From assembly GCF_000474745.1 (NCBI RefSeq), contig NZ_ASJR01000019.1:1-38800 (forward strand): a stretch of 38,800 nucleotides of DNA. Direction: 5' to 3'. A program made the translations under genes and the position numbers. Shown piece by piece: positions 1,951 to 38,231 of the stretch; the stretch's first letter is position 1; each line of letters begins with the position of its first letter. The DNA comes from Chitinivibrio alkaliphilus ACht1. Its GTDB lineage: Bacteria; Fibrobacterota; Chitinivibrionia; Chitinivibrionales; Chitinivibrionaceae. The notes under the pieces were generated by a model. That model was not told the origin of the DNA, did no database searches, and saw nothing but the letters and a program-made list of their open reading frames with translations.

Positions 1951-2335
1951 ATGCTGTCTTTCAAAAGGGCGGTTTCTTTTGTACCTTGCGGGGAGGCAGG
2001 ATCTTCACCCTGCCGGCTGAGATAATATACAAAAAAAACAGCTTCGGGAGTGAATAAATCCCCTGCATTTTGGGGAGAGTGTGAGGAGTATGTAATAGGG
2101 TAGTATTGGAAAGAGAAACCTTGCGTCAGACAAAAGTATGTATCTTTCGTAAGGGAATATGTCTATTGGAAACCGTGATTGGCAGAGGCGGCCACAAGTT
2201 TTCATGATTTTGCGGGGATGGTTTTTATGTATACTGTGATACTAAATACGCCCTTTTGTTGAAGGATATGGAAATCTCAGTTGGGGCAATACCACATGGG
2301 AGAATTTCCGTGAATACTGCCGCAATCTCCATTTG
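1951..2335. other. Intergenic region between purK and the broken K+ channel gene
   Basis: About 385 bases without a convincing gene. The part nearest purK holds its leader: a TATATTAT-like -10 candidate (minus strand, near 2022-2030) and a 6-bp hairpin at 1995-2014. The rest shows no signal I can name. A 66-codon minus-strand frame at 2005-2205 has a composition unlike a protein and no good ribosome binding site. Confidence 0.5.
1995..2014 (-). promoter_or_regulatory. Small hairpin in the purK leader
   Basis: GGCAGG and CCTGCC pair perfectly around an 8-base loop, about 45 bases ahead of the purK start. No T-run follows, so it is not a terminator by itself. It could shape the leader RNA or be a PurR-type or other operator. 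No known purine riboswitch core is visible. Confidence 0.3.
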
Positions 2336-3198
2336 TCAGCTCCCGGTGTGGGATGTTTTGCCATAACCGCACCGGGGACAGCCCATGTCGTTGTGGTTTT
2401 TTCGGGAAATTTATTCGGAGAACCCCGATGCCAGAATACCCGCGGGGAGGGCAAATATACCGATGCCAATGATCGCAATGATTGCACCCAGTATTTGTCC
2501 CTGGGGAGTGATGGGATAGATGTCTCCATATCCAACGGTGGTAAGGGCGGCTACTCCCCACCATATTGTTTGGGGAATACTTGAAAAGACTTCCGGTTGC
2601 GCAGGGTTTTCAATATGGTACATGAGTGTTGCCGTTAGTACCAGAAGGAGAAATGTAAAGAAAAGGGCTGTAAAAAGCTCTTCCTTTTTATCCCTGAACA
2701 CAGAGGTTATATGAGATAGGGCTGTGGAGTAGCGGGCTATTTTAAAGAGTCGAAGCAGTCGATGTATTCTGAATACCCTGAGTAAGCGTAGATCTACTCC
2801 GAGAAAGGGGAGGTAAAAGGGTAGGATCGCCAATAAATCTATAATGAGGAGTGGGGTTGCAGCAAATTTCAGGTTGCCCCACAGGGGTTTCTTATATGCC
2901 GGGTGTATGTTGGCGGTCCATATGCGCACAAGATATTCAATGGTAAACACCGTTACGGAGAATACCTCAAAGATGGAAAAAAATGATTCGTATTGTAGAT
3001 ATACCGATTCAACTGACTCCAGAATAATTGCCGTTACATTTAAAAAATGATGATGATAATAGAGAGATCAATGTACCATCCTGCATCTTTGGTTTTTCCT
3101 AAAGGGGTTAGGAGGGTATACAGGGATTGTTTTAATGAGTACCGTCCTTTCGTTGTATCATGGGAGTGATATCCTACTCTTTTTTTATTTTTTGACAC
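2336..3198 (-). pseudogene. Voltage-gated potassium channel (Ion_trans family), frameshift plus nonsense codon
   Basis: The restored product would be about 285 residues of a six-helix K+ channel. The helix S4 region has basic residues at regular intervals (RLLRVFRIHRLLRLFKIARYS region). The pore filter TTVGYGD is intact. Two lesions are visible. First, the opening part, from GTG 3196-3198 with GGAGG five bases upstream, reads to TLLTPLGKTKDAGWYIDLS and then stops at a TAA. The continuation (LNVTAIILESV...) lies one base back, at a T6 run (complement of 3042-3047). Second, the pore-side part ends ASGFSE then TAA. The same frame then continues ISRKNHNDMGCPRCGYGKTSHTGS to a TGA at 2336-2338, a typical Zn-ribbon-like tail. 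The gene lies 18 bases after the amidohydrolase, apparently in one operon. The longest uninterrupted part, 2411-2950, lacks S1. Confidence 0.8.
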
Positions 3199-3216
3199 CG
3201 TTACCTCCATCTGATT

Positions 3217-4422
3217 TTATTTTTCATATGCAACGATTCCTTCATGCAGCACCAAAAATATTTTTTCTAAATGCGTAATGTCCTGCAGGGGATTTCCTGA
3301 AACAACCATAATATCAGCAATTTTTCCAGCTTCCAATGTACCAAGCTCTTCTTCTATACCGCATACAAAGGAGGCATTTTTTGTTCCCGCTACAATAATA
3401 GCCATATTTGACATCCCTGCTTTTTTCATAAGTTGTATTTCAGTACGGGGAAAACCGCGATCAAAGTCGCCCATAAACCCTTCAAAATCAGTTCCAAGTG
3501 CTATCTTTCCCCCTACCTGGTAAAATTTTTTGAGATTTTCCATGGCTACATCACGATAGTCAAGGCTAAATTGCGAACTTACAATATCCCATAATTCCAG
3601 GGTTGGAATCCAGTAAATTCCCGCATCAATAATTTGCTGAATTGTAGTATCATCAACAGGATCCACAACCATATGAGCAATATCATCAACTCCGGCATCA
3701 ATTGCCCATTGTAAATGTTCTGCAAGATTAATATGTGCCGATGTTTTTATTCCCCGTGATCGTGCTGTTTCTGTTATGGCCTGAATCTGTTCAAATGTTG
3801 GCAGTTCCCACGGTCGCCCCTGTTCAAAATCTGTAATTGCAAATTTGATAACATCAACATTGTCATCAATATAGCTGTTTACCAGTTCCTGAGCCTCTTT
3901 TACAGAGGAGAATCTGCTTCCATAGCCATATCCGCCGGGAACGCCCATAATAGATGTGGCGGATAGTATTCTGGTAAGGTCTGTGCGTTGATTCAGGGTA
4001 TCCCGTTTACGTATATAGGTCAGGTTCCCTCCTGTGGAGCCGGGCATTCTGCTTTCTCCGGGACATAGGTCACGCACGGTTGTTATTCCCGCTCTAAGCC
4101 ATTTTTTGAGATTTCGTTCATCATAGGCATAGTGTACATGGGTATTAATGAAACCCGGTAATATGGTTTTTCCCTCCAGATTTTTTTTCACAGCTTTCTG
4201 TGGAATCTTTATTTCTTCCCGTGATCCAACAGCTGTAATTCGCTCTCCCTGTATTACCACTACGCCGTTTTCTATGGGAGGTGTGCCAGTTCCATCGATA
4301 ATCAGGCCGTTGTACAGTACGATGGTTTTTTTGTTGGAATCCTCTTCGGGGGTTTTTTCGGCTGACATTACGACACTCAACGTGGCGAATACAATAACGA
4401 AGGTTGTCTGCATTATGTTCAT
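3217..4422 (-). CDS. Secreted or periplasmic metal-dependent amidohydrolase (imidazolonepropionase/prolidase-like)
   Basis: The 401-residue protein starts with a signal-peptide-like stretch (MNIMQTTFVIVFATLSVVMSA), suggesting export. The amidohydrolase-superfamily metal set is complete: H95 and H97 in THVH, K193 (likely carboxylated, VIKFA), H230, H250 and D312 in LGTDFEG. The C-terminal strand motif GTLEAGKIADIMVVSG is typical of this group. Close relatives cleave cyclic amides or X-Pro dipeptides; the substrate here cannot be read from the sequence. The start lies 4 bases after the TetR stop, and the channel gene follows within 20 bases, so the three look co-transcribed. It is the only intact gene of this AT-rich block. 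Confidence 0.85.
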   Translation of the reverse strand: MNIMQTTFVIVFATLSVVMSAEKTPEEDSNKKTIVLYNGLIIDGTGTPPIENGVVVIQGERITAVGSREEIKIPQKAVKKNLEGKTILPGFINTHVHYAYDERNLKKWLRAGITTVRDLCPGESRMPGSTGGNLTYIRKRDTLNQRTDLTRILSATSIMGVPGGYGYGSRFSSVKEAQELVNSYIDDNVDVIKFAITDFEQGRPWELPTFEQIQAITETARSRGIKTSAHINLAEHLQWAIDAGVDDIAHMVVDPVDDTTIQQIIDAGIYWIPTLELWDIVSSQFSLDYRDVAMENLKKFYQVGGKIALGTDFEGFMGDFDRGFPRTEIQLMKKAGMSNMAIIVAGTKNASFVCGIEEELGTLEAGKIADIMVVSGNPLQDITHLEKIFLVLHEGIVAYEK

Positions 4423-4426
4423 TATA

Positions 4427-5118
4427 CTACACCCATTTGTTAAAATGAAAAAAGGTATCTATATCGGATATTGTTTCTGTGATGTAAGTCTGAACCATCT
4501 CTTCGACATACTTTAGTTGAAAGGCGTTGAGATTGAATATGATAATTGGATAGGCATATTCTGTTAAGGGTTGAGTACGATTCTGTTGAAGCCATTCCAT
4601 TACCACACTGTAGAGGGAGCCATTACATAACAATGCTGCTGTTTTTGTATCCTGTATATGTACGTGACCGTGTTTGCACAGGTTTTTAAATATGTGTTCA
4701 ACACGCTCGTTGGATTTGTGAAATGTGTGTGCCCTTTTTTTCTCAAAGAGGGGGTCAAATCCCGGAGCTTCAATTAGCATTGTCTTTGCAATTTCCTGCA
4801 ACTGCTGGAAGGTCCATAATTCTGCCGCTTTGTATCTGCAAAAGCCCTCTATTACACCGAGGTCGCTTTTTTTGAGGGCAAAATCAGATATTATCTGCAG
4901 TTTTTTTGCGAATTCGTCATATAAGTGCTGAAAGAGTTCACCCTTGTTATTGAAATAGAAATAGAATGTGCCAACCGATATGCCTGCTCTGGTGGTAATA
5001 TCCTTAATTGTGGTTTGGGTATATCCCTGTTTGCCGAAAAGATACTCCGCTGTGTGAATGATATGTTTTTTTTCTTATCTTTTCTTTGTTGTGTTTTTTT
5101 TGATGTTCTGTATGGCAT
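4427..5118 (-). pseudogene. TetR-family transcriptional regulator, frameshifted near its start
   Basis: The N-terminus MPYRTSKKTQQRKDKKK begins at ATG 5116-5118. The DNA-binding part (HTAEYLFGKQGYTQTTIKD, then TRAGISVGTFYFYFNNKGEL, a textbook TetR helix-turn-helix) follows in the -1 frame. The break is at an A8 run (complement of 5066-5073); one extra A would join the parts as KKKKHIIHTAEY. After that the frame is open to TAG at 4427, giving a normal TetR length of about 230 residues. The gene lies directly ahead of the amidohydrolase, so it probably controlled this operon through the dyad at 5125-5155. The run is A-AAA-AAC in phase, a classical slippery sequence, so expression by -1 slippage cannot be excluded. 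Confidence 0.8.
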
Positions 5119-5124
5119 AGGTGA

Positions 5125-5155
5125 CTCAAGCATAGAATATTGTTCTATACTTGAG
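5125..5155. promoter_or_regulatory. 31-bp near-perfect palindrome, probable TetR operator
   Basis: Outer arms CTCAAG and CTTGAG (5125-5130 and 5150-5155) and inner arms ATAGAA and TTCTAT (5132-5137 and 5143-5148) are symmetric around base 5140. Only a few centre and joint bases differ. It ends 6 bases before the regulator's start codon, the usual place for an autoregulatory TetR operator. Binding would cover the start region and so shut off regulator, amidohydrolase and channel together. Confidence 0.6.
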
Positions 5156-5259
5156 TATATATTTATTTTACCCAATAATGCAAACTTTTTTGGTGCTTTT
5201 CTTTAAGCAAAGGGGGCGGTGATATTGTGTTGGTAGCATCACCGGTATTTGGTGTGGAG

Positions 5260-5513
5260 TTAGGCCCCTGTTTTCTCCGCCAGTCGCCGGATATTGTCGT
5301 TAATCTTGAAAAGAACAATCATGAGCTCGCTGTAAATACGTGCAAACAGGGCTGTTGCCACCATAGTGATAAGACCGGCAATAATGCCCATAATACCCCC
5401 GTTGCTAATCATACAATCCCCCCTGCAACAATAGAACCCAACAGGCCAAGCCAGTAGATAAGGGTGATAATTTTGGGAACGATCATGGTGTCGAAAAAGA
5501 GAAATTCTTTCAT
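5260..5513 (-). pseudogene. DUF4282 family small membrane protein, split by a frameshift
   Basis: The first half (5409-5513) reads MKEFLFFDTMIVPKIITLIY then WLGLLGSIVAGGIV and stops at TGA. The second half (5260-5412) begins at an ATG overlapping that stop (ATGA) and reads MISNGGIMGIIAGLITMVAT, then ALFARIYSELMIVLFKINDN. Joined, they give the usual two-helix DUF4282 protein of about 84 residues with its RIYSELMIVLFKIN signature. One base is missing between them, at or just after a G6 run (complement of 5418-5423). The ATGA overlap would allow reinitiation, so two half-proteins might still be made. The family's function is unknown to me. Confidence 0.75.
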
Positions 5514-5690
5514 GCTGGTACTTCTGTAAAAATGAAACTACAGTTAAAATGTACACACAGTGTAGCTTGACAAACATACTTTCGCAAGATCTTTTTAATA
5601 CTCTCTGTTGTGTAGAGGCGTATTGCGTGGAAAAACACTCTTGTACAGGCAGGTCTTCGTGGGTAAAACGCATAAAAGACGATCTTTCTT

Positions 5691-5719
5691 TTGACACCGC
5701 AGGGGGCCTGTTCTATATT
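5691..5719 (+). promoter_or_regulatory. Sigma70-type promoter of aroC
   Basis: TTGACA (5691-5696) and TATATT (5714-5719) are separated by exactly 17 bases, near-consensus for the housekeeping sigma factor. Transcription would start near 5726, about 56 bases before the aroC start codon. Confidence 0.7.
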
Positions 5720-5781
5720 TTTGTACAGGAAATGATAATACACGGGCCTTTTTGGCTCAGCCAGCACGCTGAGGAGGTGGT

Positions 5782-6837
5782 ATGTCCGGCAGCACTTTCG
5801 GAACTCTTTTTCGCATTAGTACCTTCGGAGAAAGCCACGGTGGCGCCGTAGGCTGTGTCCTTGACGGTGCTCCTCCGGGGCTTGCCCTCTCCGAAGAGGA
5901 TATTCAAAAACAGCTCGATCGAAGAAAACCGGGTCAGTCCTCCGTAACCACTCCCCGTAAGGAGCCGGACAAGGTACATCTTTTGTCCGGTATTTTTGAG
6001 GGGCAAACAACGGGAACACCCATTTTGATGATTCTCTATAATAAGGATGCCCAGCCCAGCGCCTATAACGATATAAAAGAGATGTTTCGTCCCGGTCATG
6101 CAGACTATACCTATCTCAAAAAATACGGTATCCGGGATTATCGGGGGAGCGGTCGGGCCTCAGGACGTGAAACGGCAGCGCGGGTTGCCGCCGGTGCCGT
6201 GGCACAAAAACTTCTCAGTCAGCGCGGGGTCTCCATTACGGCCTACACCTCCCGCACGGCAGGTATCAGCTGCACCACCTATAATCCTGCAGAGATAGAA
6301 AACAACCCCATGCGGGCCTGTGACCCCGTTGCTGCGGAACAGATGGTCTCACGTATTGAAGCCCTGGCTCAGGAAGGAGACAGTGTGGGCGGCATTGTGG
6401 AGTGCCGTATTACGGGCGTCAGGGAGGGACTTGGTGAACCGGTGTTTGATAAGATTGAGGCTGATCTTGCCAAGGCGATGCTTTCCCTGGGGGCGGTGAA
6501 GGGCTTTGAGATTGGTCGGGGCTTTGCCGCGGCAGATCTTCAGGGCAGTGAACATAACGATGCCATGGATGCCCATGGGTTTAAAACAAATAATGCCGGT
6601 GGAGTCATTGGCGGGATTACCACGGGGGAGGAGATCTATTTTCGCATTGCCGTAAAACCGACATCCTCCATATCAAAAGAACAGGACACCGTTGATCTTG
6701 ACGGAAATGAGCGGGTTATCCGCACGGAAGGACGACATGATCCCTGCATTTGTCCCCGCATTGTGCCCGTGGTGGAGGCCATGGCGGGATTGGTCCTTGA
6801 GGATCATTACAAGCGCTTTGAAAGCCAGAATCTGTAA
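5782..6837 (+). CDS. aroC: Chorismate synthase
   Basis: AroC catalyses the last shikimate step, 5-enolpyruvylshikimate-3-phosphate to chorismate, with reduced FMN. The 351-residue protein carries the N-terminal GTLFRISTFGESHG signature (residues 6-19). It also has the phosphate/FMN region YRGSGRASGRETAARVAAGA (about 119-138), the NNAGGVIGGITTG loop and a closing RHDPCICPR (about 318-326). GAGGAGG sits 5-6 bases before the ATG. The gene is monocistronic: strong promoter upstream, terminator right behind. It is the only aromatic-pathway gene in the window. Confidence 0.96.
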   Translation: MSGSTFGTLFRISTFGESHGGAVGCVLDGAPPGLALSEEDIQKQLDRRKPGQSSVTTPRKEPDKVHLLSGIFEGQTTGTPILMILYNKDAQPSAYNDIKEMFRPGHADYTYLKKYGIRDYRGSGRASGRETAARVAAGAVAQKLLSQRGVSITAYTSRTAGISCTTYNPAEIENNPMRACDPVAAEQMVSRIEALAQEGDSVGGIVECRITGVREGLGEPVFDKIEADLAKAMLSLGAVKGFEIGRGFAAADLQGSEHNDAMDAHGFKTNNAGGVIGGITTGEEIYFRIAVKPTSSISKEQDTVDLDGNERVIRTEGRHDPCICPRIVPVVEAMAGLVLEDHYKRFESQNL

Positions 6838-15342: not shown

Positions 15343-16890
15343 ATGACTTTTATTGTAACGCCATCTCAAATGCGGGCGATTGACCAAGACACAATTCAAA
15401 ACGATGTTGATCGTGGCTTTTACTACATGGGATGTGCAGCAAAGGCTCTCTTTGAAGAGGTACACCACCTCTGCGGGATTCACGGGTGGCGACATATCAC
15501 CATCTTTTGCGGAACCGGAAATAACGGAGGAGATGGGGTGTATCTGGCCTGGCTGCTGCGCCGTGCCGGATATGCAGTTCTTCCTCTCTGCCTTGGGACG
15601 GTACGCACCGCAGAGGGAGCTGCTGCGGTACGGCTCTATGAAAAAACCTACGGAAAAATAGACATCCTTTCCCATACGGAAGATCTCTCTCAACTTCCCC
15701 CCACGGATGTATACATTGAAGCGCTATTGGGCACCGGAGCTGTAGGGCCCGTGCGTGGCCGTGTTGCGCCCTGTGTTGCCCATATGAATCGCTCAAACCG
15801 TCCCGTGATTGCCGTTGATTCCCCCGCTGGAGTAGATGCCGCCACGGCTGAGGTATATCCCGGAGCTTTACAGGCGTCGTGGACCCTGAGCCTTGGATTT
15901 CCTCGGGTTGGACATTACTTCACTGATACATCGGTTCTCGGTCGGTGTATCTGTCGCGTTCTGCCCTACCCAAAGGAGATAGTACAGCGCCATGGAGACT
16001 CGGTATATCTCTTGGATGAAAACCGTGTTACTGCGGCTATTCCACGACGTCAAGACCGAGGTTCCAAATACGACCACGGCGTTCTCTTTTCATTTACGGG
16101 AAGCCCGGGAATGACCGGCGCGGCAGTACTAAGTGCGCGTGCCGCCTTTCGTTCGGGGTGCGGCATGGTCTACGCGGCGCTTCCTGAAGACTCTTTTTCT
16201 GCCATGACCTTCGGCTGTATGGAAACAGTCTGCATTCCCCGTGTCCTCCCGGTAACAACATGGAAGAATGAAGAGCCCCTGGCCACGGCCCTGCGTCGTT
16301 CTACGGCACGTCTTGTGGGGTGTGGGCTCTCACGAGATCCCCGTATAGCAGAAGAGATACGCACCTTTTGTTCTCTGTACCCTACTCAATTGGTGCTTGA
16401 TGCCGATGGACTCACGGCCTTTGCCGGTCATGATGAACTTTTACGGCAGCTTGACACCCCCATTCTCACCCCTCACGCAGGGGAGTGGCAACGGCTTTTC
16501 GGCCCACTTCCGCCCTACGGCACCGAATGGATCAGTCGTGTTTCCCACGTGGCACAATCCTATGGGTGCGTCCTTGTTTTAAAGGGAATGCCAACTCTAA
16601 TTGGCGCTCCCACGGGGGAGGTCTTCCTTTCAACGTATGGAAATAGTGCCCTTGCTACGGCAGGAACAGGGGATGTCCTTGCGGGGTGTATCGCAGCATT
16701 TCGAGCACAGGGATGCAACAGCCTTAATGCCGCCCTTGCCGGCGTTGCTCTCCATGGGCGGGGGGCAGAGTTGTTTGCTGATGAGCAGGGTGAACACGCC
16801 TTACGAGCCTCAGACCTGCCAAGCTATATTGGTCGTGCCATACATCACACTCTTAGTGGTACATCGGACCCTGCTTCACCGCTTCCATGA
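15343..16890 (+). CDS. nnr: Bifunctional NAD(P)HX epimerase / ADP-dependent NAD(P)HX dehydratase
   Basis: This fused enzyme repairs hydrated NADH and NADPH. The N-terminal epimerase (YjeF_N, about residues 1-215) shows FCGTGNNGGDGVYLAWLLRR (about 55-74). The C-terminal carbohydrate-kinase-like dehydratase (about 225-505) has LDADGL, TPHAGE, LKGMPTLI and the catalytic TAGTGDVLAG (about 438-447). The ATG at 15343 is chosen because AAGGAG sits 7 bases before it. An earlier in-frame ATG at 15325 has no such site and overlaps that signal. The last 15 bases overlap convergently with trkH, leaving no room for a terminator. Confidence 0.93.
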   Translation: MTFIVTPSQMRAIDQDTIQNDVDRGFYYMGCAAKALFEEVHHLCGIHGWRHITIFCGTGNNGGDGVYLAWLLRRAGYAVLPLCLGTVRTAEGAAAVRLYEKTYGKIDILSHTEDLSQLPPTDVYIEALLGTGAVGPVRGRVAPCVAHMNRSNRPVIAVDSPAGVDAATAEVYPGALQASWTLSLGFPRVGHYFTDTSVLGRCICRVLPYPKEIVQRHGDSVYLLDENRVTAAIPRRQDRGSKYDHGVLFSFTGSPGMTGAAVLSARAAFRSGCGMVYAALPEDSFSAMTFGCMETVCIPRVLPVTTWKNEEPLATALRRSTARLVGCGLSRDPRIAEEIRTFCSLYPTQLVLDADGLTAFAGHDELLRQLDTPILTPHAGEWQRLFGPLPPYGTEWISRVSHVAQSYGCVLVLKGMPTLIGAPTGEVFLSTYGNSALATAGTGDVLAGCIAAFRAQGCNSLNAALAGVALHGRGAELFADEQGEHALRASDLPSYIGRAIHHTLSGTSDPASPLP

Positions 16891-18477
16891 GAGAAACGAG
16901 AGTGCGACAAATACCGTGTAGAGTTCCAACCGTCCCAAAAGCATTGCCACGGAGAGGATCCACTTTCCCGGAAGGGGGATCCAGCTAAAATTCTCCGTTG
17001 CTCCCACCCCGGCAAGGCCCGGTCCAATATTTGACAAACAGGCTGTCACCGCTGTTACAAGGGTAGTAAAATCTTCTAAGAAAAAACTCATGAGAAAGGT
17101 TATGGTAATGTACGAAAGCATAAACAAGAGAAAGAAGCCGATAATATTTGCCACCTGTTTTTCTTCTATGGCCACATTACCCACTTTCACTGACTTTATA
17201 ATTTTGGGATGCATAATTCGCTGAATTTCGCGAAGGACCGCTTTACTGATCACTTGAATACGGATCATTTTTATTCCCCCAGCCGTAGAACCTGCACACC
17301 CACCGAAAAACATAAGAATCACCAGAAGCACCCGCACCGCATTGGGCCATACATCAAAGTCGGCAGTTCCGTACCCCGTAGTGGTAATAAGGGAAATAAC
17401 CTGAAAACTACTGACCCGTACGGCCCCCGGAAGAGTGGCAATTCACTCCTGCTCAGTATCTATTTTCTGATGAATCTCTTCGGAGGAAAGCGGGGCTGAT
17501 CGATAGGACGAGCTGATCGTGCGTTCATCCTGCACCCCCTGCGTACGCAATACCACCGTGGAAAAAAGAATGGCTCCGGCAACAAGAATTGCGTAAAAAC
17601 GAAACTCGCGATTGGTGGTAACCACCGCCAGAGAACGCTGAAAGATAAGGGCATAATGCAACATAAAGTTCATGCCCGCCAAAAACATAAAGATGGTGAT
17701 CACCGTATCAATATTGACAGAATCGTAGTAGCCGATACTCGCATTTTTTGTAGAAAACCCACCTGTTGCCATGGTGCCGAAGGAGTGACAAAGTGCATCA
17801 AAAAGAGTCATGCCTCCCAGGGTCAACAGAAGGGTCTCCGCCAGGGTTAAAAGGATGTACACCCCCCAAAGCACCTTTGTAGTATGTCCCAGTTGCGGGC
17901 CTATTTTTTCTGCCGTTGGCCCGGGAACTTCACCACGGAACATCTGATATGCTGTTATCCCCGATGCTGGAAAGATAGCTAAAACCAAGGTAACAATACC
18001 CATTCCGCCCAACCAGTGGGTCATGCTCCGCCAAAAAAGAAGCGACTTAGGAAGAGCCTCGATATCGCGTAATATGGTTGAGCCCGTAGTGGTAAACCCG
18101 CTCATACTTTCGAAAAACGCATCGGTAAACTGGTGAAACCAAAGGGACGAAGTGCCAGAGCTCTCCATAAAGTACACCCAAAGAGGAATGGCGCTAAAGA
18201 GACTCAGGAAAATCCAACCAAAGGTAACAATGGCAAAGCCTTCACGAATACCGTTCCCCACGAGGGTGGGGGGTTTTTGTATCTTGAAAAGCGTACCGAC
18301 ACACACCGTTACCAAACAGGAAATAAAAAATCCCGATGCCGGGGCAGTACTCAAGATGGTCTGAAGAGATTCTCCAGAGGGAGTTTCTAACACGGCAATT
18401 CCCAGGGGGATGAGAAGTATTACCCCCAGAAGCTGGAGCAGTGAACCAATGGTATGGATGACAAAACCGTTATTCAT
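16876..18477 (-). pseudogene. trkH: Trk potassium transporter membrane subunit TrkH, interrupted by an in-frame TGA
   Basis: TrkH is the K+-translocating subunit. The frame is continuous over 533 codons except for a single TGA at 17443-17445. Upstream the protein reads MNNGFVIHTIGSLLQLLGVI through KIDTEQE (344 residues). Directly downstream, in the same frame, come IATLPGAVRVSSFQVISLIT, TTGYGTADFDVWPNAVR and on to the usual C-terminus. The four pore loops are recognisable: SGFTTTGST, GTMATGGFST, LITTTGYGTA and LSNIGPGLAG. The last two lie after the stop, so an unsuppressed product cannot form the pore. TGG (Trp) to TGA would explain it with one base. Start ATG overlaps the trkA stop by 4 bases (ATGA). 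The 3' end overlaps nnr convergently. Confidence 0.85.
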
Positions 18478-19824
18478 ACATTCTTCTCAAAGAATCGGTT
18501 TACTGCTTTTTCATTATTTGCCGTAAAAAAGACCATAATTGTATCTCCGGGAGCAAACACCGTATCGCCGCGGACAACATGAAACGTTTCATCCCGTACC
18601 AAACAAGCGATAATGAAGTCTACCTTTGCCTTTGCCTTTGCCCGCACTGAAACAACAGATTCACCCGCAAGCTTACTATTCTCCCCAAGGGAAAAACGAT
18701 TCATTCCTGCATCATTCTTTCTGCTTTTAAATATGCTTTTCCGCGAAATACCCGTTATGTCTGAAAACAGACGATGTATGGTAAGGCTCGTGGGCTGAAT
18801 TAACAGATCGATGCCGAGGGTATGAAAAAGTTGTGCGTGTTTTTGATTATTTGTCACGGCAAGCACACGCTGTGCTCCCTCTGCTTTGGCAAGAAGACTG
18901 GTCATCACATTTTCTTCGCCGTTTTTTCCAAGAGATACAAATATTTCTGCACTATGAACGCCCGCTTCAATAAGGGTCTCTTCATTTCCCGGATCTCCGT
19001 GAAACACATCTGTGCCGTGTAAATTTTCAGCACAGATATGACAGAAGGACGCATCCTCAGAGATAAGGGTAACCTTCTTGCCCTGTTTCTCTAACTGCGC
19101 AGCAAGCGCCACTGCCATGGGTGTATCTCCACAGAGGGTTACCTTCTGTATACGCTCTTCGGAGGCGATACAGATTTTTTGGAAATTAGGGAGTTTATGA
19201 TGTGGCATTATGGTTACGATTTCATCGTGCGGGAGAATCTCCGTATCTCCGCGTGGAATCAAGGCTTCTTGATTGCGGTAGATCATAAGAAACAGTATGT
19301 GATCCATTCCTTCCATGGCACTTATTTCAGAGGCGGTCTTATGCACAATAGGGCTGGAGGGATGCACAGCAAAGTTCCTCAGAGCAATTCGGGCTTTGTG
19401 AAAATCAACCAGCTCTGATACGGAGGGCGTTCGAATATATTCGAGAATATACTCCATGGTTTCGGTTTCAGGTTGGATGATATCGGTAACACCGAGTTTC
19501 TCCAGCTCAAAAATCTCCTGCGTATATTTGGGGCTTATAAGTCGAGCCACCCGCGTTGGAACTTGATATTTTGCCGCAAGATGACAGGTAAGTATATTCA
19601 GCTCATCCTTTGCGGTAACCGCTATCAGAATGTCCGTATCACCGATATTTGCTTCGATTAACTTTTGCGGATCAGCCCCTTCACCGTGAATAACCCGTAT
19701 ATCCATTTTTCCAGAGGTTAAGGATTGGTAGGTTTCAAAATTACTCTCGATAATGGTTATGTCAGGTTTTGTGTGCTCTTTCTCAAGCTGTTTTGTAAGG
19801 GAAATACCCACAAATAATCTTCAC
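18474..19824 (-). pseudogene. trkA: Trk potassium regulator TrkA (two RCK/NAD-binding units), 5' end damaged
   Basis: TrkA is the cytoplasmic nucleotide-binding gate regulator of TrkH. The long open part (18474-19811, from a GTG with no ribosome site) starts VGISLTKQLEKEH, so it lacks the first strand and the GxGxxG loop. A start with a proper site does exist: GGGAGCG then GTG 19822-19824 gives MKIIC, the normal TrkA opening, but it is out of frame with the rest. About five or six residues (IxGAGxx) and the frame appear lost between MKII and VGISLT. The rest shows two RCK_N/RCK_C repeats (ADPQKLIEANI, AVTAKDELNILTCHLAAK; GDPGNEETLIEAGV, SLGKNGEENVMTSLLAK). Length otherwise fits the roughly 450 residues of TrkA. 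Confidence 0.75.
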
Positions 19825-24680: not shown

Positions 24681-24699
24681 AAATTAATGAATGAGGCTT

Positions 24700-26547
24700 A
24701 TGGAATACGATGTCGTAGTTATTGGTGGCGGCCATGCAGGTGTTGAGGCAAGTATCGCCTCGGCCCGAATGGGCTGTGCTACTCTCCTTATTACGGGCAA
24801 TGTAGACTATCTTGGAGAAATGTCCTGTAACCCCTCTGTGGGAGGGGTGGCAAAAGGCACTATTGTTCGGGAAATTGACGCCCTTGGTGGTGTCATGGGC
24901 CGTATTGCCGATGCAGCAGGTATTCAATTTCGCGTCCTCAACAAAAGCAAGGGCATTGCAGTACACGGCCTCCGCGCACAGGTCGACCGGTTTCGCTACC
25001 GCGACCTTGTTCGTGAAGCTGTTCTTGCATGCGATGGGCTCTCCCTTTTACAGGACATGGTTGTTGATCTTGCGCCAGAAGGCTCCTCGTGGCGTCTTTC
25101 CACGGAGTGCGGCACCACCGTGGTCGCAAAGCGCTGTGTGTTTACAGTGGGAACGTTTCTTGAAGGCTGTGCGCACATCGGTGCGCAAACAGTGTCGTGT
25201 GGACGCATGGGAGAGCGAGCCTCCACAGGACTAGCCCATCGTCTGGAACAGCTCGGCCTTCGCGCGGGCCGCCTAAAAACAGGAACCCCCGCGCGAGTAC
25301 ACCGCGATAGCATTGACTATTCTGCCTTGACCCCACAAAGGGGGGATACGACCCCGGTACCATTTAGCTATGCTACGAATAAACCACTCACCAATGACGC
25401 TCTCTGCTGGGAGCTCCGAACAAACTCAAAAACACACGAAATTATTCGAAACAACCTGCACCGCTCGCCCGTATATGGATTGCAGTCGGTACAGGGGGTT
25501 GGGCCGCGATATTGTCCATCTATTGAGGACAAGCTGGTTCGCTTTGGAGATCGTTCTGGCCACGGTTTGTTTTTAGAACCCGAAGGGAATGGTCGTCCTG
25601 AAATGTATGTGAGCGGCTTTTCCACGGGGCTTCCTGTTGCTGTGCAGGAGCAGATGCTGCGCAGCCTTTCGGGGTTTTCACAGGCCCGCATGATAAAGCC
25701 CGCCTATGCCATCGAGTATGTCTATTTTTGTCCCAACCAACTAAATCGAACCCTTGAATCCCGAGTACTTCCTGGAGTCTATTTTGCAGGGCAAATCAAT
25801 GGAACTTCCGGGTATGAAGAAGCGGCTGGACAAGGCTTGCTTGCAGGAATCAACGCTGCACAGGCTGTTCGTGGCAAAGAGCCACTTGTTCTCCGACGAG
25901 ACGAAGCATACCTTGGAGTTCTTGTGGACGACCTCGTGGTAAAAGGAACAGAAGAGCCCTATCGCATGTTTACCTCTCGCGCAGAATACCGACTTCTTCT
26001 GCGCTACGACACGTGTGATGAACGACTCATGCCCCTAGGGGTTGCCGTAGGCCTTGTATCTTCTGAGGTATATGCGTCTCGGCAGGCTGTGTGGGCGGAA
26101 AAGGAAAAGCTACGTACGCTCCTCGACTCTACCACAGTTGGAGCAGATGCAGCTGCATCGCACACCGGTGTGTCAATCACTCAAGGCGTGCGGGCCAGCG
26201 TGTTTCTTCGACGGCCCGAGGTGTCGTTGCTACCGGTTCTCGCGGCGTGCGGGCTATGCTCTTCTCAATATAGTTCTGAAGTGCGTGCCGGGGTAGAGGC
26301 AGATATAAAATATGCCGGGTTTGTTAAGAAACATCTTGAGGAAATTGCAAGAAATCAACGCATGGAGACCATGTGTATTCCTGCGGATATTTCCTATGCT
26401 GACATAACAGGACTTTTAACCGAGAGTCGCGAAAAATTGTCGCAGGTACAGCCGCAAACAATAGGGCAGGCCTCACGAGTGCCCGGAGTAACTCCTGCAG
26501 ATGTATCGGTTCTAATTATGTATATAACACAGTTGAATAAACAATAG
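24700..26547 (+). CDS. mnmG: tRNA U34 carboxymethylaminomethyl-modifying enzyme MnmG (GidA)
   Basis: MnmG, with MnmE, installs cmnm5U at the wobble base of several tRNAs using FAD. From ATG 24700 the protein has 615 residues. It shows the FAD-binding VVVIGGGHAGVEAS at the start, CNPSVGGVAKG (about 46-56), and GTFLEGCAHIG. LKTGTPARV (about 198-206), GQINGTSGYEEAAGQGLLAGI (about 364-384) and the C-terminal MnmE-contact region follow. An ATG nine bases upstream lacks a ribosome site. It opens the typical origin cluster with rsmG, parA and parB. Its stop codon abuts the second parS. Confidence 0.96.
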   Translation: MEYDVVVIGGGHAGVEASIASARMGCATLLITGNVDYLGEMSCNPSVGGVAKGTIVREIDALGGVMGRIADAAGIQFRVLNKSKGIAVHGLRAQVDRFRYRDLVREAVLACDGLSLLQDMVVDLAPEGSSWRLSTECGTTVVAKRCVFTVGTFLEGCAHIGAQTVSCGRMGERASTGLAHRLEQLGLRAGRLKTGTPARVHRDSIDYSALTPQRGDTTPVPFSYATNKPLTNDALCWELRTNSKTHEIIRNNLHRSPVYGLQSVQGVGPRYCPSIEDKLVRFGDRSGHGLFLEPEGNGRPEMYVSGFSTGLPVAVQEQMLRSLSGFSQARMIKPAYAIEYVYFCPNQLNRTLESRVLPGVYFAGQINGTSGYEEAAGQGLLAGINAAQAVRGKEPLVLRRDEAYLGVLVDDLVVKGTEEPYRMFTSRAEYRLLLRYDTCDERLMPLGVAVGLVSSEVYASRQAVWAEKEKLRTLLDSTTVGADAAASHTGVSITQGVRASVFLRRPEVSLLPVLAACGLCSSQYSSEVRAGVEADIKYAGFVKKHLEEIARNQRMETMCIPADISYADITGLLTESREKLSQVQPQTIGQASRVPGVTPADVSVLIMYITQLNKQ

Positions 26548-26563
26548 TGTTTCACGTGAAACA
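26548..26563. promoter_or_regulatory. parS: parS centromere site 2
   Basis: TGTTTCACGTGAAACA, identical to site 1, begins at the base after the mnmG stop and ends 12 bases before the rsmG ATG. The two sites are 1.9 kb apart. Confidence 0.95.
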
Positions 26564-26575
26564 TGGGGTGCAATT

Positions 26576-27241
26576 ATGGTAAAAGACTTAGAGCAGTATG
26601 TGAGCAGTGTGAAGGACGATTTTAAGCAAAAGGAGCTTGACTATCTCGGGTTGACCCCGGATGACAAGCAACATGATCAGATACTTACCTTTTTCTGTAA
26701 GCTCTATGAAGGAATTGAGCACGGACGTCTTACCGTGGGCGGCGACCGGGGGGACATATTCATAAAGCATTTTTGTGATTCCCTGCAACCACTCCTTCTT
26801 TTTGGGTTTGGAAAGGAATCACGCATGCTCGATCTCGATTGTGAAGCGGGGTTTCCCACAATTCCGACAGCAATATTTCGCCCAGACATGCAAATTGTCT
26901 CCTTGGCTGAGGCTGAGCAGGGGCAATTTCTTCGGGAAGTTATTGAAGCGTGTGAGTTGACCAACGTAACCGTAGTAGATAAGGTGCCCGGAAAAAAGAA
27001 ATTTGACTATGTTGTGCAACGCTCAAATAAGACCCTTCAGGATCTTACCCGGCGGGCCCGGGGAGTTGTTCGTGCTGAGGGACGAATCTATAGCTTTATG
27101 ACAGACAACTTTCATGAGGAATTAAGCGAAATTACCATGAATAAAGAGGAAGAGGGCGTTTCTGTTGTTGAAATAATTGATTATGATATTGCTGATAAGG
27201 TGCAGGACCTCAATCTTGTTGCCTTTGAACTGTATCGGTAA
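26576..27241 (+). CDS. rsmG: RsmG-like (GidB) 16S rRNA methyltransferase, degenerate SAM site
   Basis: Position (after mnmG, before parA), length (221 residues) and the fold blocks identify RsmG, which normally makes m7G527 in 16S rRNA. The SAM loop, however, reads LDLDCEAGFPTIPTAI (about residues 83-98) where relatives have LDVGSGAGFPGIPLAI-like, so two of three glycines are replaced. The usual SRAF/A motif appears as QRSNK (about 148-152). The frame is fully open and starts with GGGGTG ahead of the ATG, so it is expressed but may be weak or inactive as a methyltransferase. Confidence 0.8.
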   Translation: MVKDLEQYVSSVKDDFKQKELDYLGLTPDDKQHDQILTFFCKLYEGIEHGRLTVGGDRGDIFIKHFCDSLQPLLLFGFGKESRMLDLDCEAGFPTIPTAIFRPDMQIVSLAEAEQGQFLREVIEACELTNVTVVDKVPGKKKFDYVVQRSNKTLQDLTRRARGVVRAEGRIYSFMTDNFHEELSEITMNKEEEGVSVVEIIDYDIADKVQDLNLVAFELYR

Positions 27242-27262
27242 TAATTCTTCCGGGGGTATGGA

Positions 27263-28048
27263 GTGAAGGTTCTAGCAGTATCAAATCAGAAAGGTGGCGT
27301 GGGAAAAACAACCACAGCTATCAATCTTGCGGCCTGTCTTGGCGCATGTGAAAAAAAGACGCTTTTAATAGACATGGATTCTCAATGTAACAGCACAACC
27401 GGAATCGGCCTCGATAAAGAAGGGGACGGTTTCTCTTCCTATGAAGTACTAATGGGAACCTGCTCTGTGGAAGATGCGATCCAGCCTTCACCGGGCATTT
27501 CTTATTTAGATGTACTGCCCAGCAGTGTGAACCTTGCGGGGGTAGAGCTGGAGTTGGTGAGCGCCTTCTCCCGTGAGCGAAAGCTTGCAGGGGTTATCGA
27601 ACACGTATCCGATACATACGAATACATCATCGTCGATTCACCGCCCTCCCTTGGCCTTATCACCGTAAATATTCTCACTGCAGTGGATGCTGTTCTTATT
27701 CCAATTCAGTGTGAGTACTATGCCCTGGAGGGCTTAGCGGAACTCCTCAATACAATCCGTCTTGTGCAGAAAAAACTGAACCCCTCTCTCACCATTGAAG
27801 GGGTGCTTCTGACCATGTACGACGGACGACTCAACCTTTCTCGTCAAGTGGTGCAGGATGTGCGGAGCTATTTTAGCGGAAATGTCTTTGATACAATAAT
27901 ACCCCGTAATGTAAAACTCTCTGAGTCTCCCTCTTTTGGGAAGTCTATTATTGAATATGACGTAATGTCCCGCGGCGCCGTGGCCTATCGTGACTTAGCC
28001 AATGAAGTAATCAACAACACAACCCCTGTGCGGAAGGGGGAGCAGTGA
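27263..28048 (+). CDS. parA: Chromosome partition ATPase ParA (Soj)
   Basis: ParA forms DNA-bound ATP dimers that move ParB-parS complexes. The 261-residue protein begins at GTG 27263 (GGGGG upstream) with MKVLAVSNQKGGVGKTTTAI. The deviant Walker A KGGVGKTT is at residues 10-17, and IDMDSQCN and IVDSPPSLG are the Walker A' and B segments. It is of the short chromosomal type without an N-terminal regulatory domain. parB overlaps its stop by four bases (GTGA). Confidence 0.96.
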   Translation: MKVLAVSNQKGGVGKTTTAINLAACLGACEKKTLLIDMDSQCNSTTGIGLDKEGDGFSSYEVLMGTCSVEDAIQPSPGISYLDVLPSSVNLAGVELELVSAFSRERKLAGVIEHVSDTYEYIIVDSPPSLGLITVNILTAVDAVLIPIQCEYYALEGLAELLNTIRLVQKKLNPSLTIEGVLLTMYDGRLNLSRQVVQDVRSYFSGNVFDTIIPRNVKLSESPSFGKSIIEYDVMSRGAVAYRDLANEVINNTTPVRKGEQ

Positions 28049-28941
28049 GTACAAAAAAGCGAAAAGCCTTAGGACGTGGATTGGAGGACCTGTTTTCCGC
28101 CACGGGTTCCGATGTGCCGGAAGATACAACAGGAATTCACGGGCAGGAGGAAGAGATTCCTGTCTCAAAGATCGTAGTAAACCCTTTTCAACCACGTACC
28201 GACTTTGACGATACCGCCATTGTAGAGTTGGCCGAAAGCATTCGGCATCAAGGGCTCATTCAACCCATTGTGGTGCGTCGATCGGGAGAGGTGTACCAGA
28301 TTGTATCAGGAGAGCGACGATTTCGTGCCATGGGGCGGCTTGGGTGGGAACGGATTCCTGCCATTATTCGCACCTCCATTAGCGACCAAAAAATGCTTGA
28401 GATTGCCATCGTTGAGAATGTACAACGTGTTGATCTTAATGATATCGAAAAGGGAATCTCCTATAAACGGCTCCTTGAAGAGTGCGGGTTGTCACATAAA
28501 GAGCTTTCCGAACGAATCGGAAAAAGCCGCAGTGCCATAACAAACTGTATGCGCCTGCTAAAACTCCCCGCCTTTGTTCAGGATCTGGTGCGAAAATCAG
28601 AGATCTCCATGGGACATGCACGTGCCTTACTTTCCTTAGAACACGCAGAAGAACAAGTTGCCCTTGCCAAAGAAATTGTAGAAAAAGGGCTCTCAGTTCG
28701 GGCGGTTGAAGAGCGCGTTGCTGCAAACAAACAGAAACCCACCCCTGCAAAACGTTCTGCCTCAGCCCTGACAGAAACAGCGACTCACTGTGTAGAACAG
28801 TGGAAAGAGGCCTTCGGCTCATCCGTGTCTTTAAAAGAGCTCTCACAAGGGCGCGTGGCAGTGCAAGTAGTTTTTTCATCACAGGAAGAGTTTGCCCGTT
28901 CATCCCAGCAGATTACCAAGGCGTCCTCTCATGAAAAATAA
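28045..28941 (+). CDS. parB: Chromosome partition protein ParB (Spo0J)
   Basis: ParB is a CTP-dependent clamp that loads at parS. The 298 residues start at GTG 28045, overlapping parA. The N-terminal KKRKALGRGLEDLF is the ParA-contacting motif. The CTP-binding domain has PFQPRTDF, IRHQGLIQPIVVR and GERRFRAMGRLGW (about 90-102). The central helix-turn-helix ELSERIGKSRSAITNCMRLL (about 153-172) recognises parS. The C-terminal dimer domain covers about 245-295. Two perfect parS sites lie within 3.5 kb upstream. The 3' end overlaps the peptidase gene by 11 bases. Confidence 0.96.
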   Translation: MSTKKRKALGRGLEDLFSATGSDVPEDTTGIHGQEEEIPVSKIVVNPFQPRTDFDDTAIVELAESIRHQGLIQPIVVRRSGEVYQIVSGERRFRAMGRLGWERIPAIIRTSISDQKMLEIAIVENVQRVDLNDIEKGISYKRLLEECGLSHKELSERIGKSRSAITNCMRLLKLPAFVQDLVRKSEISMGHARALLSLEHAEEQVALAKEIVEKGLSVRAVEERVAANKQKPTPAKRSASALTETATHCVEQWKEAFGSSVSLKELSQGRVAVQVVFSSQEEFARSSQQITKASSHEK

Positions 28942-37490: not shown

Positions 37491-38231
37491 ATGTATTCGC
37501 ACATGTCTCTACAGAGTATTTTTTCAGCTGTTATACTTATGGTTCATGTGTTTACCGTGCATGCATGGGGAGTATCATACACCCGGGAAGAATCGCGTTT
37601 TATTGATACGGTTGGCACTGTTTATTTATGTGTCGATCCGTATTGGGAGCCCTATGAACTATTACATGAGGATGGCTCCTTTACGGGTATCGCCGCTGAT
37701 CTGATAGACCGTATTTCCCAGAGAACAGGGATAGAATTTGAGATTGTTCCAACAGAAAATTGGAGTGAGTCCCTGGAATATATGCGTAATGGTAAATGCG
37801 ATGTCCTCGCCTTTCTCAATTACACAGAAGAACGTGCACAATGGATGAATTTTACTGAGTCGTATTATACCACTCAGAACGTCTTCGTAACCCGTTCTGA
37901 GCACCCTGATATTCACGATCTGAATGATTTCACCTCAATACGGGCAGTGCTTCCTGAGGGCACGAGTATAGAGGAACGGTTTCGACGGGAATACCCCCAT
38001 GTTGAGATTATACTGGTGGAAACGGAGGTAGAAACCTTCGAAGCCGTACACGCAGGCAAAGCCGATTTCACCTTTCGTTCACTTCCCGTTGCAGCCTTTC
38101 TTATACGTAATGAGGGCTGGTTTTCTCTGAAGGTAGCAGGAACATTAGAGGGGTATGATAATAACTTTCGTATGGGGTGTGCACCGGATCTTCCCCTATT
38201 GCCTATGATACTTAATAAGGGTATAGTCTAA
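37491..38231 (+). CDS. Periplasmic solute-binding-like (SBP_bac_3) domain protein, apparently truncated
   Basis: The 246-residue product has a signal-like N-terminus (SIFSAVILMVHVFTVHAWG) and one family-3 solute-binding domain. Its landmarks are VYLCVDPYWEPYELLHEDGS, FTGIAADLIDRISQRTG, GKCDVLAFLNYTEERAQWMN and NNFRMGCAPDLPLLPMILNK. Domains of this sort usually sit at the front of membrane sensor kinases or cyclase proteins and continue after LNK with another helix, a membrane span and an output domain. Here the frame stops after LNKGIV, so the output part is missing. A free short binding protein is possible, but with the IS end 440 bases away I favour a remnant. ATG 37503 is an alternative start. 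Confidence 0.7.
   Translation: MYSHMSLQSIFSAVILMVHVFTVHAWGVSYTREESRFIDTVGTVYLCVDPYWEPYELLHEDGSFTGIAADLIDRISQRTGIEFEIVPTENWSESLEYMRNGKCDVLAFLNYTEERAQWMNFTESYYTTQNVFVTRSEHPDIHDLNDFTSIRAVLPEGTSIEERFRREYPHVEIILVETEVETFEAVHAGKADFTFRSLPVAAFLIRNEGWFSLKVAGTLEGYDNNFRMGCAPDLPLLPMILNKGIV

Follow-up and report, generated by a model that had tools for sequence, protein, structure and literature searches.

The DNA analysed here, referred to as the window, is the entire contig C19 (38,800 bases) of the draft genome of Chitinivibrio alkaliphilus ACht1, a soda-lake chitin degrader in pure culture (PMC4704652). The draft was found to comprise 2,591,328 bases in 99 contigs with a completeness of 96.65%, the published figures being 2.6 Mb, 46.2% GC and 99 contigs (PMC4704652, Table 1), and the stretches sampled from it showed a GC content of 45-46%. 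The window contains the trkA and trkH genes of a Trk-type potassium uptake system, a gene for a voltage-gated potassium channel and a TetR-family gene unrelated to potassium, and in each of them the reading frame is interrupted (table below). The first-pass annotation had reported four lesions in the potassium genes, namely a TGA in trkH, the loss of the first NAD-binding loop and the frame of trkA, and a frameshift and a nonsense codon in the channel; all four are present, and its coordinates were good. Farther along the contig, mnmG, rsmG, parA and parB are consecutive at 24691-28941. This neighbourhood often adjoins the replication origin.

Table. Broken genes of the window and their lesions
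Feature	Position	Strand	Basis or remark
Voltage-gated K+ channel, Kv/KCNQ-like, TVGYGD filter	~2336..3210	-	PF00520 and PF07885; KCNQ-type solved relatives
TAA directly after S6 of the channel (ASGFSE-stop)	2411..2413	-	short CxxC-containing tail in frame beyond
A6/T6 run, channel frame change within S1	3042..3047		frame lost at the run
TetR-family gene, non-K+, frame broken	4429..~5110	-	A8 run 5066-5073
trkH, K+ channel-like Trk subunit	16876..18477	-	533 codons, one in-frame stop; TrkH PF02386
TGA nonsense, trkH codon 345	17443..17445	-	~20 codons upstream of pore loop 3 TTTGYGTADF
trkA, two-RCK regulatory subunit	18474..19824	-	GTG start kept, N-terminal loop lost; TrkA_N and TrkA_C
17-nt deletion junction at GxGxxG loop, frame lost	19811..19816	-	DNA alignment with G001 and G003, three-frame translation

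The trk operon

PF02386 matched trkH in two pieces (5-250 and 344-491), and only when the TGA was read through were the full-length profile of the TrkH/TrkG family (5-491 of 502, with one TGA inside) and its four pore loops recovered; the uninterrupted frame of that family is lacking. The position of the stop ahead of the third pore loop was confirmed. Read through the TGA, the protein shares 62% and 58% identity with those of two family relatives, and at the site of the stop the relatives have mostly Lys or Arg, not Trp. Since 40 of the 187 long genes in the ACht1 genome end in TGA, this codon is a working stop in the organism, and this usage together with the residues of the relatives ruled out its reassignment as Trp.

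The alignment of trkA with its counterparts in the family relatives G001 and G003 showed a 17-nt gap, clean against both and placed exactly at the GxGxxG loop, in agreement with the earlier statement that the gene has lost its first NAD-binding loop and its frame. After the gap the sequence is open for 445 codons and homologous, with two TrkA_N and two TrkA_C domains as in two-RCK proteins, and it can be aligned over 15-430 with TrkA of PDB 4j9u; its closest relatives show 47% identity. The trkA stop overlaps the ATG start of trkH (ATGA), as read directly from the sequence. Set beside the solved TrkH-TrkA structures (PDB 4j9u, 6v4j), TrkH with its four pore loops and TrkA with its two RCK domains can each be recognised along their length, but in the window trkH carries a stop before pore loop 3, and trkA is without the nucleotide-binding loop of the first RCK domain and without its frame.

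A comparison of the orthologous loci in relatives, which had been proposed as a check, sets these lesions against intact homologues, as is expected of pseudogenes: in the 41 related genomes searched every other copy of TrkH was uninterrupted and the TrkA matches had no internal stop. The relatives found by sequence included, in the TrkH alignment, MAGs labelled Chitinivibrionales and Fibrobacterota. No genome of the same genus was among those searched, the TrkA protein query returning no relatives and the TrkH alignment family-level and more distant MAGs only.

The constraint on the two genes was gauged by counts of invariant residues and by branch lengths; at protein identities of about 47-62% silent sites would be saturated for dN/dS. 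TrkA departs at 8 of the aligned residues that are invariant in 15 relatives, no relative departing at more than 3, and a further 3 residues are lost in the gap. The terminal branch length was 0.66 for TrkA versus 0.39 for TrkH, and the conserved sites departed amounted to 33.6% in trkA versus 23-25% in G001 and G003, part of the divergence of trkA being common to its family relatives. The trkH gene departs at 3 of 95 invariant sites, as its relatives do, and its codon usage is normal on either side of the TGA. Because trkH shows no excess loss of conserved residues, its stop would be either recent or a sequence error, and the unequal loss of such residues in the two genes suggests that trkA was affected first and trkH later.

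Expression of the genes despite their lesions, by read-through of the stop, recoding of the TGA or an internal restart of trkA, appears highly improbable. Both open frames are long, codon usage in trkH is continuous across the TGA, and an in-frame GTG stands at 19811; however, the use of TGA as a terminator and the residues of the relatives at the site argue against recoding, a TrkA restarted at that GTG would have a first RCK domain without its glycine loop, and an Rfam search of the window gave no match. We know of no recoding element at the trkH TGA site.

The channel and the background of broken frames

The frameshift and the nonsense codon ascribed to the channel are both present, but the TAA directly follows S6, so that S2-S6, the selectivity filter and the voltage sensor are intact and the short tail alone is lost. 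The CxxC tail beyond the TAA is similar to the channel tail of G013. The large metabolic genes around these lesions are clean, as the first-pass annotation stated, but the TetR gene is not. The channel (A6) and the TetR gene (A8) both shift frame at a long run of one base, like the homopolymer frameshifts of 454-type sequencing; neither the two trk lesions nor the channel TAA resemble these. A solute-binding gene at 37491-38231 was also suspected of being broken, its Pfam match stopping at 98 of 132, but the frame ends plausibly and nothing fits beyond it, and the gene was left uncounted. The GC content at 2000-5800 of the window, a region that holds the channel, an amidohydrolase and the TetR gene, is about 42%, below that of the rest of the contig. 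Coding scores of the channel and the TetR gene are weak, and this low-GC region was possibly acquired.

The frequency of broken frames in the draft was estimated on about 798 kb of stretches from the ACht1 genome outside the window, with a three-periodic Markov model trained on long genes; frames were decoded along the stretches and the candidate junctions were sorted by eye. In all, 13 frameshifts were accepted as probable, along with 2 nonsense codons, which corresponds to about one comparable break per 53 kb and one probable frameshift per 60 kb; these figures are approximate and probably low because the detector overlooks breaks close to a gene start and those of atypical genes, and the candidates were sorted by eye. 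In the window the detector missed trkA, the channel and the TetR gene and picked up a single break, that of trkH, where about 0.7 would be expected. The same procedure applied to 400 kb of the related genome G002, which is of similar size, gave about one candidate break.

Clear background cases were a solute-binding domain that changes frame at profile position 97/98 and a Wzz/GNVR protein spread across two frames; further breaks, judged by the translated text alone or with a partial Pfam match, include those in AsmA-like, GH8, RecD-like, uracil-DNA-glycosylase-like and translation-factor-like GTPase genes. The two nonsense codons lie in a NucS-like gene and a Band_7 gene. The annotation of the ACht1 assembly probably contains many split genes. 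Runs of at least 6 were found within 25 nt of 6 of the 13 frameshifts versus 10.6% of random windows, and runs of 7 or more at 5 of the 13 versus 3.4% of windows (p about 5e-5). This excess suggests consensus errors of the 454 kind, which it resembles, and real slippage would give it too. ACht6-1, a relative that is also from a soda lake, was sequenced by 454 GS FLX (PMC4814513), a method that may not be that used for ACht1.

The statement that random sequencing error fits poorly could not be upheld against this background: genes with no connection to potassium are often broken in the draft as well, with an excess at homopolymers, and the channel frameshift at its A6/T6 run belongs with these breaks, its more likely origin being slippage or an error in the sequence. 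That the draft is wrong at all four sites, through errors of the 454 type or of assembly, and that the operon and the channel are intact in the cell, deserves consideration but is rather unlikely. The number of probable frameshifts in the sample and their excess at long homopolymers, the near absence of breaks in G002, the sequencing method of the same-habitat relative and the otherwise good conservation of trkH speak for it, but neither a nonsense substitution nor a 17-nt deletion is an error of the homopolymer type, two of these lesions lie in one operon, and trkA is without several invariant residues. Non-homopolymer breaks number about 6 per 798 kb, and independent errors would place two of them within a single 3-kb operon with a probability of roughly 2-3 in 10,000 (a Poisson estimate); a single genuine loss, after which decay went unchecked, is therefore the better fit. 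Nonsense codons being rare in the sample (2 in 798 kb) and a 17-nt gap being another kind of lesion, both trk lesions stand out from the background as probably biological.

Other potassium loci of the genome

In the search for other uptake systems in the rest of the genome, which the first-pass annotation had also recommended, an uninterrupted pair of the KtrB/KtrA type was found on contig C15, consisting of a TrkH-family membrane protein (TIGR00933 over 1-391) and an adjacent frame for a single-RCK protein, with one TrkA_N and one TrkA_C domain, the arrangement of KtrAB systems. The KtrB-type gene (L002:1401-3713, minus strand) has a long frame upstream of its TrkH domain, 771 aa from stop to stop, and the frame of its counterpart in G003 measures 691 aa. 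The pair is like KtrAB in its composition and is a candidate replacement for Trk; it lies outside the window and differs from the known type in the long N-terminal extension of its KtrB. Kup and Kdp (KdpA), searched for in the ACht1 genome as further replacements, were not detectable. Likewise uninterrupted are a second voltage-gated channel on C26 and, on C1, an RCK channel with two helices. Since three potassium loci are uninterrupted, the damage does not extend to all potassium genes of the organism, and the assertion that these genes are disabled as a class, which came from the view of a single contig of a noisy draft, is not supported; to judge from the genome sequence, the loss concerns one TrkH-type uptake system out of two.

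Relaxed selection on potassium flux, negative selection on it and replacement by another system had been offered in explanation. Relaxation and replacement are supported for Trk by the uninterrupted KtrAB-type pair and by the invariant residues departed from or lost in trkA, but negative selection on K+ flux is without evidence. A selection against potassium flux as such, in which a joint loss of Trk and the channel adapted the organism to the soda lake, is very unlikely. It could draw on the breaks in 2 of 5 potassium loci and on the growth of a haloalkaliphile at a salinity of 0.6-3.5 (M Na+) (PMC4814513). Against it stand the three uninterrupted loci, one of them another voltage-gated channel, and the nature of the channel lesions, the frameshift being of the background type and the TAA sparing S2-S6; moreover, at a chance of about 5% for a break per locus, 2 of 5 is only mildly unusual (about 0.02, an estimate made after the fact).

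A candidate pseudo-operon and its meaning

The explanation preferred here, to which a probability of roughly 0.6 is assigned, is that trkA-trkH is in this strain a real and fairly young pseudo-operon, dispensable through the intact KtrAB-type system, and that noise of the draft probably accounts for the channel frameshift, with no event specific to potassium. The presence of a second uptake system would have made Trk dispensable; the 17-nt deletion would then have taken the nucleotide-binding loop and the frame of trkA, and trkH, joined to trkA by the overlap of start and stop, would have lost its use and gained a nonsense codon. The lesions, the intact paralogues, the background of breaks and the conserved residues missing from trkA are observed; from these we infer that the trk lesions are biological, that they arose in this order and that the work is done by KtrAB. 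The case is like the bacterial pseudogenes that arise from redundancy, in that an operon decays while a paralogous system is intact, and it is known from the sequence of one strain. The conservation and codon usage of trkH count against the pseudo-operon, as an error would explain them just as well as a mutation of very recent date. Literature on trk pseudogenes offered nothing for this organism. The overall picture looks like ordinary gene loss together with draft noise, and where broken genes cluster in an old draft, function should be read from them only after a genome-wide count of the background.

In G002 and G004, which belong to the same family but to another genus and are both 97% complete, neither TrkH/KtrB, TrkA, Kup, KdpA nor an Ion_trans_2 channel was found; with TrkH and TrkA missing in both, Trk is absent elsewhere in the family. 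KtrAB systems in other bacteria are sodium-dependent, and such a system would suit an organism of molar sodium. It is tempting to speculate, although we consider it doubtful, that the Chitinivibrionaceae are losing Trk in favour of other potassium routes suited to a sodium-rich alkaline brine: ACht1 would be in the middle of this loss with KtrAB left, and the sister genus, already without Trk, Ktr, Kup, Kdp and potassium channels, would import the ion by an unrecognised route. If the loss of trk in ACht1 is real, this haloalkaliphile would lean on a single detectable potassium importer, KtrAB.
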